This document shows positions 1 to 18,968 of a DNA stretch of 37,607 nt, in pieces. Every line of letters begins with the position of its first letter. Position 1 is the stretch's first letter. The translations under genes and the position numbers were made by a program. Origin of the DNA: Candidatus Aminicenantes bacterium JdFR-78 (GTDB taxonomy: Bacteria > Acidobacteriota > Aminicenantia > JdFR-78); contig MTON01000030.1 in the NCBI GenBank assembly GCA_002010665.1, positions 18,224-55,830 on the forward strand, written 5' to 3'. Under the pieces are notes generated by a model. That model searched no databases. It was not told the origin of the DNA and saw only the letters and a list, made by a program, of their open reading frames with translations.

Positions 1-2308
1 TTTTCAAACCGCCCTTTTTTATTATAAAAATTATGCTTACAATTATTATTCCGACTAAAGTTGTGAATGTTATTATTGCTCCGTAAATAAAACTATTCGG
101 TAAGTATTTTAAAACTATTTCATGTCTTCCTGAAGGGACAACAATTCCCTTTGAAGTTAAATTCACCTTAAAAATTCTTACTCTTTTACCATCTACCCAT
201 GCTTTCCAGCCAGGATAGTAATTACCATAAAAAACAGCAATAGCTGAACTTGAAGATTCAATTAAATACCGCTTCTTTCCCTGTTTTTCTTCTAAGGTAA
301 TTATCCTATAATTCTTCTTATTATTGAAATTTTCACTTAAATTGATCTCTTTGCCCACAATAGCAATTTTTTTTGGATCAAAATTCTCACTACCAAGAAT
401 TTTCATCTTTTTGTCTATTGACTTTACTCTAATTGAATCAAAAACAAGATAAGGGAATTTTAAAATCTTCTTGATTTTCTGGAAGTAAAGAGTGTATCCT
501 TCAATAACCTTTTTCTTTGCTGGAAGATTCGATAGTGGATGGTGTGTAATATAATAATGACATCCAGAAAGACTTAAAATTTTTATTAATGCCTGTACAT
601 CGCATTCTTTAAGAAACTTCCTGATCTTATGATATTCCTCGCTATAAAGTCCGTAAAAATCCTTGTTAAATTGATATTCAACATCATCTCCTAAACCACA
701 GAAGGGATAAAGACTTTGCCTTAAATAATTATGTGCATTAAAACTGCTTCCAACTTCCTTTTTCAAAAATGTTGGCAAATAGTCATCCCTATACACTCTA
801 AATGGAGGTTCCAAAGTTTTTAAAATATCTGGTTTTTTAAAAAATGATATCGAAACTACTGGATTAATTGTCCTATTTGTAATTACTAAATCAAATAAAA
901 TTACAAAAATTAAAATCCAATCCAAAAATTTTGTAGAGGAATGAAATATACCTGATAAAAGAATTATGAATGAGCAAATTATAAATATTAAAAATCCATG
1001 AATAAAAGACAAATTTAATTCAGAAATGGATTGCTTATTGTCAATAACAAAAAAGTTACCAAGCAATGTCAAGAGTTGTTCTTTAAAAATTAAATAAAGC
1101 GTTAATGAGAATAAGGACAGGAAAAAAATAATAAAAAGTTGCTTATTCTTAGTTTTTCTATATCTAAATAAATTATCAAAAGCTATGGCTGAAATTATTG
1201 AAAGGGAAAATATTGCTCCCATTAAATACTTAACTGGATATCTTAAAGTGGAGAATGGAGGAATATATTTAAACATAAAAAAGAAAGGCGAATATTTTCC
1301 AAAAGACATGAAGAAAAAAGTAAAAAAAGTAACTATTAAAACAACATGTCTTTTATCATACGGTTTTTGCAGCCCAAGAAAAAATAATATTAGAACTCCA
1401 AAGCTAATATAAAAGCTATAATATAGAGGATAACCCTTATCAAACAAATGACCTCCCCAGAAATCATTATGACCTGGTTCCCTGTCATTCCCAAGAAAAT
1501 TAGGAAATACAAAATTTGGCAATTGGATAATTTGAAAAGACCATTGCGTGGGATCAATTATTGCTCGCTCAGACCTCACCATTAGCTCAAGGGAGGGAAG
1601 TAATTGAATGGCAGATATAAAAATTGCTATTATTAATGGAAATATCAAAAGTTTAACTTTTCTAATAGCCTTTTCTTTTGAAAAAATTATTAGAATTAAT
1701 CCAGAAATAAATGTTATGATAATTACATATGGTGTTCCTGCCAGAATTAACAAACTCCATAGAATAGAAAGAACTATCAATCTTATCAGGAATTTATCTT
1801 TGAATTTATTTAAGATAAACAATATCCAAGGCATCCAGCACAATGCTGCAATATGATTATAAAATTCAAATGAAGAAAGGAACATACCACTCAATATAAA
1901 AATTGTAGCTCCAAAAAATGAAGCCTTTTTTGATAGGGAAAATGATTGAGAAAAGAAATAAAGACCTGTCCAACAGATTAAAACATGAATAAGATAATGA
2001 ATTTTAAATGATATGAAAAAAGGTAAGAATAAATACAATAATGTGGTCGGATAAAACACAGCATTTTTCGGATTTGCCAAAAAGGGTTGTCCATTGCCAT
2101 ATGCATCTGTCCAAAGAGCAAAGCTTCCTTCTCTAAGGAGTTTAACACAGAGTATTCGTGATGGTATTTCAATGAGAGTAGAATCCCTTTCAAAAAAAAC
2201 ACTGTCTGTAAAAAAGAAATTTTTGAACATAAATATGAAAAGCATGAGAAAAATGAAGAAATAGATAACATCTATTTTATAGATAATGTTTTTTCCGTTT
2301 TTATTCAT
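1..2308 (-). CDS. YfhO-like multi-pass membrane protein (partial, runs off left edge)
   Basis: One open frame runs from an ATG at 2308 to the window edge, giving 769 codons with no stop. Reading starts MNKNGKNIIYKIDVIYFF, and the protein has many hydrophobic segments. An N-terminal loop (about residues 65-90) has the pattern ALWTDAYGNGQPFLANPKNA, which resembles the conserved first loop of YfhO and GT-C-like proteins. A late extracytoplasmic segment ends in NYYPGWKAWVDGK, a hallmark of YfhO proteins, followed by a last membrane helix near the cut. YfhO proteins are membrane proteins linked to glycosylation of cell-surface polymers; the substrate cannot be told here. The start overlaps the stop of the upstream GT-C gene by 8 bases (ATGAATAA), so translation is probably coupled. 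The family's usual length of roughly 800-900 residues suggests only the C-terminal end is missing. Confidence 0.82.
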   Translation of the reverse strand, partial: MNKNGKNIIYKIDVIYFFIFLMLFIFMFKNFFFTDSVFFERDSTLIEIPSRILCVKLLREGSFALWTDAYGNGQPFLANPKNAVFYPTTLLYLFLPFFISFKIHYLIHVLICWTGLYFFSQSFSLSKKASFFGATIFILSGMFLSSFEFYNHIAALCWMPWILFILNKFKDKFLIRLIVLSILWSLLILAGTPYVIIITFISGLILIIFSKEKAIRKVKLLIFPLIIAIFISAIQLLPSLELMVRSERAIIDPTQWSFQIIQLPNFVFPNFLGNDREPGHNDFWGGHLFDKGYPLYYSFYISFGVLILFFLGLQKPYDKRHVVLIVTFFTFFFMSFGKYSPFFFMFKYIPPFSTLRYPVKYLMGAIFSLSIISAIAFDNLFRYRKTKNKQLFIIFFLSLFSLTLYLIFKEQLLTLLGNFFVIDNKQSISELNLSFIHGFLIFIICSFIILLSGIFHSSTKFLDWILIFVILFDLVITNRTINPVVSISFFKKPDILKTLEPPFRVYRDDYLPTFLKKEVGSSFNAHNYLRQSLYPFCGLGDDVEYQFNKDFYGLYSEEYHKIRKFLKECDVQALIKILSLSGCHYYITHHPLSNLPAKKKVIEGYTLYFQKIKKILKFPYLVFDSIRVKSIDKKMKILGSENFDPKKIAIVGKEINLSENFNNKKNYRIITLEEKQGKKRYLIESSSSAIAVFYGNYYPGWKAWVDGKRVRIFKVNLTSKGIVVPSGRHEIVLKYLPNSFIYGAIITFTTLVGIIIVSIIFIIKKGGLK

Positions 2309-3914
2309 TGTAATATCTTATATCAACTTCTTTTGGAAGTTTTTTGGAAAATCTCCTCAAATTGTTAAGAAGAATATTCTTCTCTCCAGGTTCCACTGCA
2401 TAAAAGGAAACTACTTCACCCCCACAGACAACATTGTCTGATATCTCCCACTCACCTACTTTAGCCCATGTAGAGGGTAACCCTCCTATTCTTTCATTCC
2501 AGAACCAATTATCATAAACAATTGCAATTTTTACATGATATCTTTTCGCCAGATCATAAATGGTATTTCTATTATATTTATTAGCTCTTTTCAATTTTGC
2601 TACTTCAATAGTTCCAAGCCCCCATAAATCAAGATTCTTAATTTCGGATAAATAATTAATTGCTCCTACATCATTTGCAGCAACTTCTTTTCCTTGATAA
2701 AAACTCTTAAGAAATAGCCCCATTTGATATTGCTGTTGGTATATATTAGCACAGGCTCTTGGAATTTCTATTAATGAAGAGAATCCTCTCGATATCATTT
2801 GATAGCCCATTAAAAAACTCAGAATTATTACTGCTATTCTATAAAATTTGCTGACAGGAGTATTAAATACTTTTTCAGCTAGATAGTGGCGAGAAATAAT
2901 ACTAATTGCCATAACTCCTATTGCAATCAAATAAGCTTCATAACGATAAAATCCCCCAAATCTTGCAAATTTGATATGAAATAGAGCTATAATAACAAAA
3001 ATAAAATTTAATAATAACTGTTTTTTCCAGAAGATCCTATATTTTAGGAAATCATATGTGAATAACAATAATGAAACTACAGTGAGAGCAAAAAGAGGAT
3101 TCATTATTTCAATGATATTTATATTTTTAAAATAAAAAACTGACTTGACAAAAGTCTTTACGGAGGAGAAATCAATTACATATCCTTTAAGAAGAATTGA
3201 ATTTGGGAAGAAATACCACCCATGAAATACTGAAATGCATCCATATATTAAAATCGGAAGTATTGCCAGGAATCCAATCGTAAGTGATAAACGAATTTTT
3301 TTTCTTATTAAAAATAGAACGCAGATTATAAATACCAGAAATATACTTTCATATCTAACTGTAATAATGAAAAAAGAAAGTATTAAAAGCCATCTTTTTT
3401 CTTTTTTTAAGTTTTCCTCGGTCATAATTTTTACAGCAAGATAAATGAAAAAAAGGCTTATAAAAATATGAGCACTATGTTCCATCCCAGTAAATACAAC
3501 AGCGGGTAATGGAGAGAAGAAAAGCAAAGCCAGAAGAATGAGAAAATTGTAAATTCCATAAATATTAAAGGATTGTAAAATTCTATAAGATAGGAGGAGT
3601 ATGAGAACAGAAAAAATCACATTAAGGATAAAAGGCATAATCTCATTTACACCGATTATTTTATATAAAAATGAAAGTAGTAATGTCCAAGACAGTGAGC
3701 TCGATGATGAGCTGAATGAATATTTTGTGATTCCCCATACCCCATATTTTGAAAAATTTTTAGCCATTGCCATGTGAATATAAGCATCATCTCCTGCATA
3801 AATAAGTTGATTATTAGTGTTCTTTAGTGAAAGAATTAATGTAAATGAAATTATTAATAAAAATATACTTAGTACAGCAAAGATAACCCAATTTTTTCTT
3901 AAGAAGACAGACAT
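2301..3914 (-). CDS. GT-C-type membrane glycosyltransferase (AftB/ArnT-like architecture)
   Basis: A 537-residue protein with about 10-12 hydrophobic helices. After the first helix (residues 12-31) it has a periplasmic loop containing DDAYIHMAMAKNFSKYG. The DDAYIH motif is the conserved acidic loop of lipid-linked-sugar GT-C enzymes such as mycobacterial AftB and its relatives. The C-terminal soluble part (from about residue 410) has NDVGAINYLSEIKNLDLWGL, a pattern common at the end of this family. Established knowledge: such enzymes use polyprenyl-phosphate sugars on the outer face of the inner membrane. Inference: with the DPPR-synthase-like UbiA two genes upstream, the donor may be a polyprenyl-phosphate pentofuranose. 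The start is preceded by TTTTTAGG directly before ATG, a poorly spaced ribosome site, so an internal start is possible. It ends inside the YfhO-like gene start. Confidence 0.75.
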   Translation of the reverse strand: MSVFLRKNWVIFAVLSIFLLIISFTLILSLKNTNNQLIYAGDDAYIHMAMAKNFSKYGVWGITKYSFSSSSSSLSWTLLLSFLYKIIGVNEIMPFILNVIFSVLILLLSYRILQSFNIYGIYNFLILLALLFFSPLPAVVFTGMEHSAHIFISLFFIYLAVKIMTEENLKKEKRWLLILSFFIITVRYESIFLVFIICVLFLIRKKIRLSLTIGFLAILPILIYGCISVFHGWYFFPNSILLKGYVIDFSSVKTFVKSVFYFKNINIIEIMNPLFALTVVSLLLFTYDFLKYRIFWKKQLLLNFIFVIIALFHIKFARFGGFYRYEAYLIAIGVMAISIISRHYLAEKVFNTPVSKFYRIAVIILSFLMGYQMISRGFSSLIEIPRACANIYQQQYQMGLFLKSFYQGKEVAANDVGAINYLSEIKNLDLWGLGTIEVAKLKRANKYNRNTIYDLAKRYHVKIAIVYDNWFWNERIGGLPSTWAKVGEWEISDNVVCGGEVVSFYAVEPGEKNILLNNLRRFSKKLPKEVDIRYYNE

Positions 3915-3935
3915 CCTAAAAAGACTTTTTGATAT

Positions 3936-5012
3936 TCAATAACTCAGCCACAATTTACCCCATTCTGTCCTTAAAAATTGTTTAATTCTCTTTCGCCCAA
4001 TTGTGGGATACCACAAAAGGTCATGATAAATATTACTTGCAAAGGGTGCCCATACAACCATTGGACTGTGAAGAAGAATTTTCTCAAAGGGCTTGAGAAA
4101 ACCTTTTCTAATCATCTGGTCACCCCATATTACAACACTCTTTTTTACTTTGAAATGAAAATTAAGATCAGAAATATCCTCACCAATTATCTCGATTTCT
4201 TTTGGGTCACCTATTCCTAAACCCATCTCATGACACATCCGAATATAAGGAATTTCCATGGGATCAAATCCCATGATTTTTGCAGAAATTGCATCTATGG
4301 CAACAGAGTCTCCACTTGCTAAAATTATGTTTCCGATTTTGGGCTCCATTGTTCTTGGGCCAGCTCCATCACCACAAACTGTTCCATCCATTACAGCAAA
4401 TACACCTGAATGAAGTTCTTTTTGAATAATCATTAAATCTACCAATACTTCATGTATATATTTATGGGCATAATGTCTTATCTCTTTAAGTAATCCCCCA
4501 AAAGAATTTTTAATTGCACCTGTTGTTATGGAATGACCATGAGTTTTTACAGTTGGAAGATGAATGATATTCTTTCCTATGAGCATTTTAGGAATTTCAA
4601 TTCCATCTGGAAAAATTTCATGAAGCTTGAGGAGCTTACTTTTGAATTCATACTTTATCCATTCCACCTGTGTAAGAGGAATAAATTTCAAGCCATATTT
4701 TTCCAATATAGGTAGCCACTTATTATTTTTCGCTCCTTTAATTGGATTAGTAACCACTGTTTTATTTTCTATAGGTATTATTTTTTCTTTTTCGAATTTA
4801 TCTTCAAATAGAGTTTTTATCACACCTTCTAATTGCCAGGGTTGGGTCGAACATGAAGGAAAATATTTTGTCCAGGATAAATTGAGTTTTATTAAAATTT
4901 CCTTGTCCTTTGAGATAAATTTCTTATAATCAGCTAAATGCATTAGTACTTTATAATCATCAATAACTGTCTGAGGAGATGTTTTTAAAACCGCCACTTT
5001 TGATTTTGTCAT
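3936..5012 (-). CDS. DUF362 domain protein
   Basis: I place the start at the ATG at 5012 (MTKSKVAVLKTSPQTVIDDY), which gives 358 residues. The longer frame from 5069 would overlap the UbiA gene by about 50 bases and adds an unrelated hydrophobic stretch. The protein matches the DUF362 pattern: an N-terminal strand KVAVLKTSP, KLNLSWTKYFPSCSTQPW (about residues 60-80), a histidine-rich HLPTVKTHGHSITTGAIKN segment near residue 160, and MDGTVCGDGAGP near residue 215. No iron-sulfur cysteine cluster is seen at the C-terminus. DUF362 proteins have no settled general function. The gene starts 4 bases after the ubiA-like stop, so it is part of the same operon, which suggests a role in the same surface-glycan or lipid-linked sugar pathway. 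That link is inference. Confidence 0.75.
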   Translation of the reverse strand: MTKSKVAVLKTSPQTVIDDYKVLMHLADYKKFISKDKEILIKLNLSWTKYFPSCSTQPWQLEGVIKTLFEDKFEKEKIIPIENKTVVTNPIKGAKNNKWLPILEKYGLKFIPLTQVEWIKYEFKSKLLKLHEIFPDGIEIPKMLIGKNIIHLPTVKTHGHSITTGAIKNSFGGLLKEIRHYAHKYIHEVLVDLMIIQKELHSGVFAVMDGTVCGDGAGPRTMEPKIGNIILASGDSVAIDAISAKIMGFDPMEIPYIRMCHEMGLGIGDPKEIEIIGEDISDLNFHFKVKKSVVIWGDQMIRKGFLKPFEKILLHSPMVVWAPFASNIYHDLLWYPTIGRKRIKQFLRTEWGKLWLSY

Positions 5013-5016
5013 TTTA

Positions 5017-5892
5017 TTACTTTGTGTATAATACAATAACTGCCACAAGAATCCATAAAAGAATATCAAGCAATAAAGGTTTATCCGTAATAATTAATTT
5101 TTCTGGACTCCCTCCTTTTCCCTTATGATGAATGAGATATAAATATCGAAATATACCATAAAGGACAAATGGTATTGTGAACATAAGATTTTTAGTTCCG
5201 AATTTAGTTACAGTCTCTTCTGAAATAGTATAAAGGCAATATGCAATAATAGTGGAAGCAGTAACAGCTGCGGTCATTTGGTCGAGTAAATATGGATTAT
5301 ACTCTTTTAAAACTGGACGGTGTGTTTGAGCATCGTCTTTTAAAAAAAGAAGTTCATATCTTCTCTTATTTATAGCCAGAAAGAGAGCAAGTAACCCTGT
5401 GCATATAAGTAGCCATGAAGAAATGTAAACTTGAATAGCTAAAGCACCAGCCACCACTCTTATTAAAAATCCAGTTGCTATAACAAATATATCAAGAATA
5501 ACCACATGTTTTAAATAAAGAGAATAAGACAATTGGAGCAAAAAATAAAATGAGAGAATAAGAATAAAATATTTATTCAGAAAAGCGGAAAAAATAAAAC
5601 TGGTAAAACTGATAATGATAAAAGATGTAATCGCGGTCTGTTTTTTAAGTCTTCCTGAAGCTATTGGTCTTTTGGACTTAATTGGATGAAGTCTATCTTC
5701 TTCTAAATCTTTTAAATCATTAAAAATATAAAGTGAACCTGAAATTAAGCAAAAAATAATAAAAGCAAAAATATTCTTAAAAAGGAGTGGGAAATTAAAA
5801 ATGTTTTGCGAAAATATTAGAGGAGCAAATATAAAGAGATTCTTTATCCATTGATTAGGTCGCATTGATTTTATTATTTCTATTAGAGCCAT
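5017..5892 (-). CDS. UbiA-family prenyltransferase, decaprenyl-phosphate phosphoribosyltransferase-like
   Basis: A 291-residue integral membrane protein with about 8-9 hydrophobic helices. It opens with MRPNQWIKNLFIFAPL (residues 10-25), the signature of the DPPR-synthase branch of UbiA. It then has NDLKDLEEDRLHPIKSKRP (58-76), with the metal-binding Asp residues D59, D62 and D66 and the HPxKxxRPIASG tail. In mycobacteria this enzyme (Rv3806c) moves 5-phosphoribose from PRPP to decaprenyl phosphate, the first committed step to the D-arabinofuranose donor. Homologues occur in other bacteria, for example in D-arabinofuranosylation of Pseudomonas pilin. It heads a minus-strand operon with DUF362, GT-C and YfhO genes, an order reminiscent of the mycobacterial ubiA-aftB neighbourhood. 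No DprE1/DprE2-like epimerase genes are in the window, so the final sugar is unknown. Confidence 0.8.
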   Translation of the reverse strand: MALIEIIKSMRPNQWIKNLFIFAPLIFSQNIFNFPLLFKNIFAFIIFCLISGSLYIFNDLKDLEEDRLHPIKSKRPIASGRLKKQTAITSFIIISFTSFIFSAFLNKYFILILSFYFLLQLSYSLYLKHVVILDIFVIATGFLIRVVAGALAIQVYISSWLLICTGLLALFLAINKRRYELLFLKDDAQTHRPVLKEYNPYLLDQMTAAVTASTIIAYCLYTISEETVTKFGTKNLMFTIPFVLYGIFRYLYLIHHKGKGGSPEKLIITDKPLLLDILLWILVAVIVLYTK

Positions 5893-17927: not shown

Positions 17928-18968
17928 CTAAGCTTTCACCTCCCTTGAAATTTTTTCCTTCTCAATGAAAACAAGCATGTTATGAATTTCTCTGATTAAT
18001 TCTTTTAAACCTATCTCTCTTAATGCTGATATTTCTATAAAAGGTATATTTGTTTTTCCCGCAAATTCCCTTAACTTATTTAATTTATGTTTATGTTCCT
18101 TCTCCTTAATTAAATCTATTTTATTTGCAATTAAAATCTGGGGTCTTGATACTAAAGATGGATTAAAGGATTTCAACTCATTCATAATTATGTAATAATC
18201 CTCAACAGGATCCCTATCCACATAAGGGGAAACATCTATCATATGAGCAAGCATTTTTGTCCTTTCTATATGTTTAAGAAATCTAATTCCCAGACCTTTT
18301 CCTTTATGCGCATTTTCTATTAAACCAGGAAGATCAGCTATTACAAAACTATTTTCTTCATCCACATCCACAACCCCCAAATTAGGATGAAGGGTTGTGA
18401 AAGGATAATCTGCAATTAAGGGTTTTGCAGAGGATATTTTTGACAAGAGTGTGGACTTTCCAACATTCGGAAATCCAATCAATCCAACGTCAGCAATCAA
18501 TTTTAATTCTAAAATTAATTCTTTTTCTTCGCCTGGTTTTCCAGGTTCAGCTTTTTTAGGGGCTCTATTTGTTGGTGAAGCAAACGATGCATTTCCTCGT
18601 CCTCCTTTTCCACCTTTTGCTGCTAAATAGATTTGATTTGGTTCTGTAAAATCAAAAAGAATTTCGTTTGTTTTTACATCTTTTATTACAGTTCCGACAG
18701 GAACTTTCAAATAAATATCCTCGCCTTTCCTCCCGGTTCTATTATTACCTTCACCATGCCCACCGTTTCCAGCTCTTATATGAGGATGAAATCTAAAATA
18801 GGAAAGGGTGGTTAAATTCGAATCTGATACAAAAAATATGCTACCACCATCTCCACCTCTTCCACCATCTGGACCGCCTTTTGGGACATATTTTTCCCTT
18901 CTGAAACTCACACATCCATTTCCCCCCTTACCTGCTCTGAGGTAGATTTTTACCTGATCAACAAACAT
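17928..18968 (-). CDS. obgE: Obg family GTPase
   Basis: A 346-residue protein with the glycine-rich Obg fold (1-157: KIYLRAGKGGNGCVSFRREK and GPDGGRGGDGGSIFF) and a G domain with G1 GFPNVGKST, G3 DLPGLIENAHKGKGLG and G4 ANKID. There is no C-terminal OCT domain, which is normal for the short form. It acts in assembly of the large ribosomal subunit. It starts 4 bases after the rpmA stop, in the classical rplU-rpmA-obgE order. Confidence 0.96.
   Translation of the reverse strand: MFVDQVKIYLRAGKGGNGCVSFRREKYVPKGGPDGGRGGDGGSIFFVSDSNLTTLSYFRFHPHIRAGNGGHGEGNNRTGRKGEDIYLKVPVGTVIKDVKTNEILFDFTEPNQIYLAAKGGKGGRGNASFASPTNRAPKKAEPGKPGEEKELILELKLIADVGLIGFPNVGKSTLLSKISSAKPLIADYPFTTLHPNLGVVDVDEENSFVIADLPGLIENAHKGKGLGIRFLKHIERTKMLAHMIDVSPYVDRDPVEDYYIIMNELKSFNPSLVSRPQILIANKIDLIKEKEHKHKLNKLREFAGKTNIPFIEISALREIGLKELIREIHNMLVFIEKEKISREVKA

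Follow-up and report, generated by a model that had tools for sequence, protein, structure and literature searches.

A DUF362 protein with a predicted LarA fold as proposed partner of a DPPR-synthase-type UbiA in an Aminicenantes gene cluster

What does a DUF362 protein contribute next to an enzyme of the type that makes decaprenyl-phosphoryl-5-phosphoribose (DPPR)? The question arises at the left edge of the window, a 37,607-nucleotide stretch of Candidatus Aminicenantes bacterium JdFR-78 (contig MTON01000030.1, positions 18,224 to 55,830; genome G000, 2.53 Mb, 97% complete), where four minus-strand genes run in the order UbiA, DUF362, GT-C-like (resembling glycosyltransferases of the C superfamily), and YfhO. 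The original prediction had read this order, and it stands, the GT-C label of the third protein aside. Since UbiA and DUF362 lie 4 nucleotides apart, DUF362 and the GT-C-like gene 21 nucleotides apart, and the GT-C-like and YfhO genes overlap by 8 nucleotides, the four genes likely form one operon.

DprE1 is a major tuberculosis drug target. Two routes from lipid-linked ribose to other pentofuranoses are named in PMC11127046, one with DprE1 and DprE2 and the other with one short-chain dehydrogenase/reductase (SDR) epimerase. On balance, we favor the reading that the operon codes for both the synthesis and the use of a polyprenyl-phosphate-linked pentofuranose, with DUF362 as an epimerase replacing DprE1 and DprE2. 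The more specific proposal is tentative, and we regard it as possible though doubtful: that the DUF362 subfamily is a nickel-pincer, LarA-like polyprenyl-phosphate-ribofuranose epimerase, a single non-homologous replacement for DprE1 and DprE2 in bacteria and archaea. As a LarA-type enzyme, it would then have a lipid-linked sugar and not a free hydroxy acid as its substrate. The new part is DUF362 as the partner of UbiA. As had been predicted, DPPR-type UbiA and GT-C-like genes do occur here outside actinobacteria, and a type IV pilin-like gene lies beside them; such a system is not new in kind, since pentofuranose glycosylation outside actinobacteria is already known (PMC11127046). We found no paper in the open-access literature linking DUF362 with UbiA or pentofuranoses.

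Features of UbiA and DUF362

The window UbiA scores 292.2 bits against the curated NCBIfam model of decaprenyl-phosphate phosphoribosyltransferase (NF008977, cut-off 234) and matches the solved mycobacterial enzyme (PDB 8j8j) at E 9e-40. DPPR-synthase motifs are present, as the original prediction had noted: NDxxDxxxD at residue 58 and R..E at residues 177–180; both were studied in Citrobacter ORF15 (PMC11127046). In a tree of 132 rows, the window UbiA did not cluster away from DPPR synthases but fell inside the DPPR-like group, alongside the UbiAs of genomes carrying DprE1 and DprE2; this is a quick tree with long-branch warnings and one other UbiA as the sole outgroup row. By homology, the window UbiA is a DPPR-synthase-type enzyme, and transfer from phosphoribosyl pyrophosphate (PRPP) is predicted.

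DUF362 matches PF04015 alone (89 bits, cut-off 24); the Lar_N model PF09861 gave no match to it, and sequence searches against the PDB returned no hit or two thiolases at E about 1. An AlphaFold2 model built from 60 sequences reached a predicted local distance difference test (pLDDT) score of 91.5. All nine Foldseek matches of this model at E ≤ 0.001 are LarA-type, and VIA-align ranked nine LarA-type entries at Z 15.1–16.6; an uncharacterized Thermotoga protein came next (13.6), and the entry after it fell to 5.5. LarE structures also appeared in the Foldseek list (E 3e-3 to 1e-2); most of these alignments cover about 100 columns, and we treat them as weaker partial matches. According to the model, DUF362 has the LarA fold, and its best matches lie in the LarA superfamily, whose racemases and epimerases use a nickel-pincer cofactor. 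DUF362 and DUF2088/LarA are placed in one Pfam clan, CL0471 (PMC11770544).

In the LarA numbering of PMC7583248, Arg75, Lys184, and His200 are the cofactor residues, and His108 and His174 are catalytic. The motif K.H...KN.FGG...RH..H is present in 104/104 DUF362 sequences, some of them duplicates, and the spacing of 10 between His158 and Lys168 is kept in all of them, as between His174 and Lys184 of LarA. These two pairs line up in a weak profile alignment, in which LarA His200 would match DUF362 His183 only with a one-residue shift. LarA relatives with a single catalytic His, in which Asn replaces His174, were solved recently and tentatively tied to carbohydrates (PMC12611868). Judged from the alignment, they are a parallel to DUF362 and not the same change, since in DUF362 it is His108, and not His174, that lacks a conserved counterpart.

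Distribution of DUF362, UbiA, DprE1, and DprE2

A profile from 20 class DUF362 sequences was used to collect named loci, of which the best 80 of at least 560 were kept, so that close relatives are favored. Each locus was fetched with up to 10 kb on each side, and a DPPR-like UbiA was defined by more than 80 bits to the window UbiA. The loci span Aminicenantes (DUF362 56–75% identical to the window protein in Aminicenantes-titled loci), other Acidobacteria, Zixibacteria, Krumholzibacteria, Rokubacteria, Chloroflexi, Armatimonadetes, Omnitrophota, Peptococcaceae, and archaea (15 loci). Cultured strains are among their owners, such as Methanolobus bombayensis DSM 7082 (L178) and Desulfocucumis palustris NAW-5 (L146). 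A DPPR-like UbiA shares the locus with DUF362 in 46/80 loci, including 11 of the 15 archaeal ones, and in 33 it is the gene just before DUF362 on the same strand; clustering within six genes gives a count of 43. The 34 loci without UbiA include several short contigs. The catalytic motif is kept in 45/45 UbiA homologues over 230 amino acids from these loci. When the 80 loci were queried with DprE1 and DprE2, no DprE2 and a single weak match (27% identity across 158 residues) came up. A Woesearchaeota contig carries a second, distant DUF362 gene near UbiA-DUF362, also with the His-Lys spacing of 10 (L184:5258-6301, minus strand).

Ten neighboring proteins were tested against family models. PHP phosphoesterases lie near DUF362 in 8/80 loci, from archaea and Chloroflexi (L178, L180, L188, L190, L198, L200, L201, L205), and UbiA is also present in four of these (L178, L180, L188, L198); PF13263 was over its cut-off in both proteins tested, and the enzyme may be a candidate 5'-phosphatase. 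Small EamA/SMR-like transporters occur in 5 loci (one protein tested), and LPG_synthase_TM (two tested) and PMT_2 proteins (three tested) stand beside the UbiA-DUF362 pair in some. Some neighbors would thus suit the expected phosphatase, flippase, and transferase roles. In family f5 (L116–L118, L120, L121), an unlinked DUF362 gene adjoins a protein of about 613–622 amino acids, and the L118 copy resembles an LptA/OstA repeat protein by eye, a hint of an outer-membrane glycan.

The association extends beyond linkage. In a class sample of 60 genomes (the window genome and 59 class relatives; UbiA at E < 1e-30, DUF362 subfamily at E < 1e-90), UbiA was found in 44 genomes and DUF362 in 33; 32 carry both, 12 only UbiA, 1 only DUF362, and 15 neither. 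Since the two genes are adjacent in only 5 of the 60, in the loci examined, their co-occurrence is mostly not due to linkage. In a phylum sample of 247 Acidobacteriota genomes, taken as one set across gene searches, a DPPR synthase is present in 100 genomes over the NF008977 cut-off and in 110 at 160 bits or more. The DUF362 subfamily was detected in 69/247 genomes (E ≤ 1e-60), and a DPPR-like UbiA in 68 of the 69: 66 at 160 bits or more and two weaker (131–143 bits) in a longer frame. The view that DUF362 is a real member of the pathway is upheld by the 46 linked loci and by these 68 genomes; DUF362 did not prove unlinked elsewhere.

DprE1 shows the opposite pattern. With the G171 protein as query, DprE1 was found in 53/247 genomes (E ≤ 1e-30), none of which carries DUF362. 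PF04030 was rejected as a DprE1 marker in favor of this protein query, since the model is too insensitive: it gave only 21 bits for the DprE1 beside UbiA in G060. It matched in none of the 60 class-sample genomes. With the DprE1 neighbor in G117 as query, DprE2-like genes were found in 58 genomes (E ≤ 1e-20), namely 52 of the 53 DprE1 genomes and 6 without DprE1, and in none of the 69 DUF362 genomes. Because DprE2-like genes are absent from the DUF362 genomes and present in nearly all DprE1 genomes, one protein may replace both. The window genome has no DprE1 (0 candidates) and no DprE2 at the same thresholds. In G060, a DprE2-like SDR is fused to a DPPR-like UbiA (L239:5407-7074, minus strand) and adjoins DprE1, which ties the DprE route of the phylum to UbiA of the DPPR-like type.

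Among the 110 DPPR genomes, DUF362 is present in 66, DprE1 in 31, and both in none (Fisher 2e-17, kinship ignored). Across 51 families, DUF362 occurs in 28 and DprE1 in 18; only two families (f23, f52) have both, in different genomes (expected 9.9, P 3e-6). When states were placed on the UbiA tree for 90 rows (82 from the phylum sample, part of the 110, and 8 class relatives outside it), 12 switches between the DUF362 and DprE1 states were counted. Starred branches gave 10 independent pairs; in about 6 of them DprE1 changed opposite to DUF362, and in none did it change in the same direction. Mutual exclusion of this kind usually points to non-orthologous replacement or to two alternative products. 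The original prediction saw no epimerase genes here, probably in error, since DUF362 has a racemase/epimerase-superfamily fold and stands in for DprE1 and DprE2 in distribution.

A further 22 genomes have weaker NF008977 matches (110–148 bits; G213, G185, G268, and others), mostly in frames near 500 amino acids and often in family f16. DprE1 is present in 17 of them and DUF362 in 2. By analogy with Citrobacter ORF15, these long frames are perhaps phosphatase-UbiA fusions.

In LarA enzymes, a hydride passes to a tethered nickel-pincer nucleotide and is then returned. A single protein thus oxidizes and re-reduces its substrate, which fits the replacement of both DprE1 and DprE2. LarC completes this cofactor. 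LarC was found in 65/69 DUF362 genomes versus 112/178 others of the phylum sample; among genomes without a PF09861 match, it was found in 34/36 with DUF362 versus 33/87 without. DprE1 has no comparable link with LarC (35/53 with DprE1 versus 142/194 without, p 0.31). The window genome carries LarC and also a weak PF09861 match (E 1.3e-5). Although confounded by kinship, the LarC distribution supports a nickel-pincer cofactor for DUF362, whose binding is predicted. The 33 genomes with LarC and neither a PF09861 match nor the DUF362 subfamily suggest that other nickel-pincer users may await discovery.

Proposed pathway and alternative roles of DUF362

In the first step, which is strong by homology, UbiA would move ribose-5-phosphate from PRPP to polyprenyl phosphate. 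A phosphatase coded elsewhere would then take off the 5'-phosphate, a role that the PHP phosphoesterase may serve in some archaea and Chloroflexi. In the step that forms our proposal, the LarA-fold DUF362 would invert a ring carbon by removing and then restoring a hydride, replacing DprE1 and DprE2; C2 is the simplest carbon for this inversion and would give arabinofuranose. Finally, the donor would be flipped, and the GT-C protein, with or without YfhO, would pass the sugar to an acceptor on the cell surface, for which the neighboring type IV pilin is a candidate.

Several observations weigh against this scheme. One genome (G205) carries DUF362 without any NF008977 match, 13 of the 110 DPPR genomes carry neither DUF362 nor DprE1, and four DUF362 genomes have no LarC (G070, G198, G219, G260). 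The exclusion test corrected for kinship is modest (median p 0.031, range 0.016–0.125, starred branches). At the residue level, hhalign aligned the LarA and DUF362 profiles with a probability of only 1.8% with A1 and no credible match with A3; the phosphate-binding Arg75 of LarA has no conserved DUF362 counterpart, and no conserved His stands at the aligned His108 position (residues 83–84). By eye, no flippase was recognized in the operon or in C5:1-20000, and it may be encoded elsewhere; no phosphatase was recognized among the open reading frames of the operon or to its left. The exclusion of DprE1 would also be expected if DUF362 made another pentofuranose or performed another step.

The missing phosphatase would be accounted for if DUF362 were itself the 5'-phosphatase, or another enzyme processing polyprenyl-phosphate ribose phosphate, and unepimerized ribofuranose were added. 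Consistent with this role, of the 22 genomes whose NF008977 match is weaker, and which presumably have a phosphatase domain of their own, as Citrobacter ORF15 does (PMC11127046), only 2 carry DUF362. However, DprE1 is present in 17 of these 22, and a phosphatase is not expected to exclude DprE1 and DprE2, as seen in all 69 DUF362 genomes. In addition, PHP phosphoesterases accompany DUF362 in eight loci, four of them with UbiA, and we know of no phosphatase with a LarA fold. We consider this role unlikely. A little more probable, though still not what we expect, is that DUF362 epimerizes C3, or C2 and C3, or otherwise alters the ring, giving xylofuranose or a rarer pentose instead of arabinose. 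The xylofuranose of Citrobacter O2 is made from the same lipid-linked ribose by an SDR epimerase (PMC11127046), and the exclusion of DprE1 and DprE2 fits this product equally well. On the other hand, the substrates of the known LarA enzymes are 2-hydroxy acids (PMC11770544), and none of the present observations favors C3 over C2.

The link between DUF362 and UbiA could also reflect a common membrane-lipid or quinone-like pathway, given the breadth of the UbiA superfamily and the unrelated housekeeping neighbors in many named loci. This seems very improbable, since UbiA is specifically of the DPPR type by its curated cut-off, its motif, and its grouping with the UbiAs of DprE1/DprE2 genomes, and since PMT_2, LPG_synthase_TM, and small transporter genes stand beside the pair in some loci. 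If the epimerase proposal is true, DUF362 represents a third route, unrelated to DprE1/DprE2 and the SDR epimerase and spread over bacteria and archaea. Part of DUF362 would thereby gain a function, LarA-superfamily chemistry would extend to lipid-linked sugars, and the common UbiA-DUF362 gene pair would become a marker of pentofuranose glycans not so far suspected in archaea and uncultured phyla.

Operon features and comparison with known systems

The four genes are listed below. For DUF362, the alignment favors the inner ATG at 5012; the listed TTG at 5069 overlaps UbiA.

Features of the proposed operon (window coordinates)
Feature	Position	Strand	Basis
UbiA-family polyprenyl-phosphate phosphoribosyltransferase, DPPR synthase type; first gene	5017..5892	minus	NF008977, PDB 8j8j, motifs, tree
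DUF362 protein with predicted LarA fold; proposed lipid-linked pentofuranose epimerase	3936..5012	minus	PF04015, AlphaFold2 model, structure matches, linkage, distribution
GT-C-like membrane protein with DDAYIH following its first hydrophobic stretch; proposed donor user	2301..3914	minus	sequence; family of 10
YfhO-family membrane protein, second candidate GT-C; runs off the left edge of the window	1..2308	minus	PF09586 (38 bits); homologues in UbiA-DUF362 loci

At E ≤ 0.001, the GT-C-like protein has no Pfam match. DDAYIH is invariant in its 10-member family except for one A/S position. One of the ten members matches PMT_2 (E 3.5e-4), and three give weak matches (best E 6e-4) to NF047440, a family of putative glycosyltransferases; the window protein itself scores 15 bits against this model (cut-off 200). 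The family profile gave only chance-level hits against the PDB (E 0.13 and worse), and a single-sequence structure model had a pLDDT of 43.8, too low for fold assignment. These results speak neither for nor against the likeness to AftB that the original prediction drew. Relatives of the DDAYIH protein occur in 11/60 class-sample genomes, two as short fragments, and UbiA is present in all 11. YfhO is over its PF09586 cut-off of 28.5 bits, and its homologues occur in three UbiA-DUF362 loci (L139, L143, L186).

To the left of the operon, where the original prediction proposed to look for DprE1-, DprE2-, or PAP2-like genes, none was recognized by eye. A plus-strand series, pilB-pilT-pilC-pilS-pilR-pilA, lies there instead, convergent with YfhO; the names were assigned by reading the sequences, and a family model (PF07963) was applied to the pilin-like homologue in L186 alone. 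The pilin-like gene (L004:17637-18194) is transcribed apart from the convergent YfhO, with a hairpin between both. The YfhO frame stays open through the hairpin and stops inside the pilin 3' end (L004:17637-18260; the window starts at contig base 18224), and its end is uncertain because a single N at 18223 falls in the hairpin. Pilin-like genes occur in only 2/80 named loci (L186, L138). The GT-C-like and YfhO proteins as donor users, with the pilin as candidate acceptor, are possible and form the weakest step of the proposal; given the convergent gene, the hairpin, and the rarity in named loci, the pilin as acceptor is only a hint. An Rfam search gave no match, and promoter-like sites (45 versus 39.7 in shuffles) and terminator-like sites (5 versus 4.0) showed no excess.

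The mycobacterial decaprenyl-phosphoryl-arabinose pathway consists of Rv3806c, Rv3807c, DprE1, and DprE2. Its first enzyme is homologous to the window UbiA over nearly the full length (8j8j, residues 5–283 of 291), whereas neither DprE1 (E ≤ 1e-30) nor DprE2 (E ≤ 1e-20) was found in the window genome. The D-arabinofuranose glycosylation of Pseudomonas type IV pilin (TfpW; in part after PMC11127046) likewise places a DPPR-type enzyme and a GT-C-like gene beside a type IV pilin-like gene. However, the window operon is convergent with the pilin gene and has no DprE1 or DprE2. DUF362 shares its predicted fold with the LarA superfamily (nine entries, Z 15.1–16.6), which includes single-histidine members (PMC12611868). 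It differs in belonging to PF04015 and not PF09861, in the lack of a conserved Arg75, and in its substrate, which would be a lipid-linked sugar. The three-component pentofuranose systems of Citrobacter youngae O1/O2 (PMC11127046) resemble the proposed system in a UbiA-type polyprenyl phosphoribose synthase, a lipid-linked donor, and a GT-C protein, here a candidate, that uses this donor outside the cytoplasm. In contrast to them, the window UbiA has no phosphatase domain and no MATE flippase was recognized in the window operon, and DUF362 stands where those systems use an SDR or DprE1/DprE2 epimerase.

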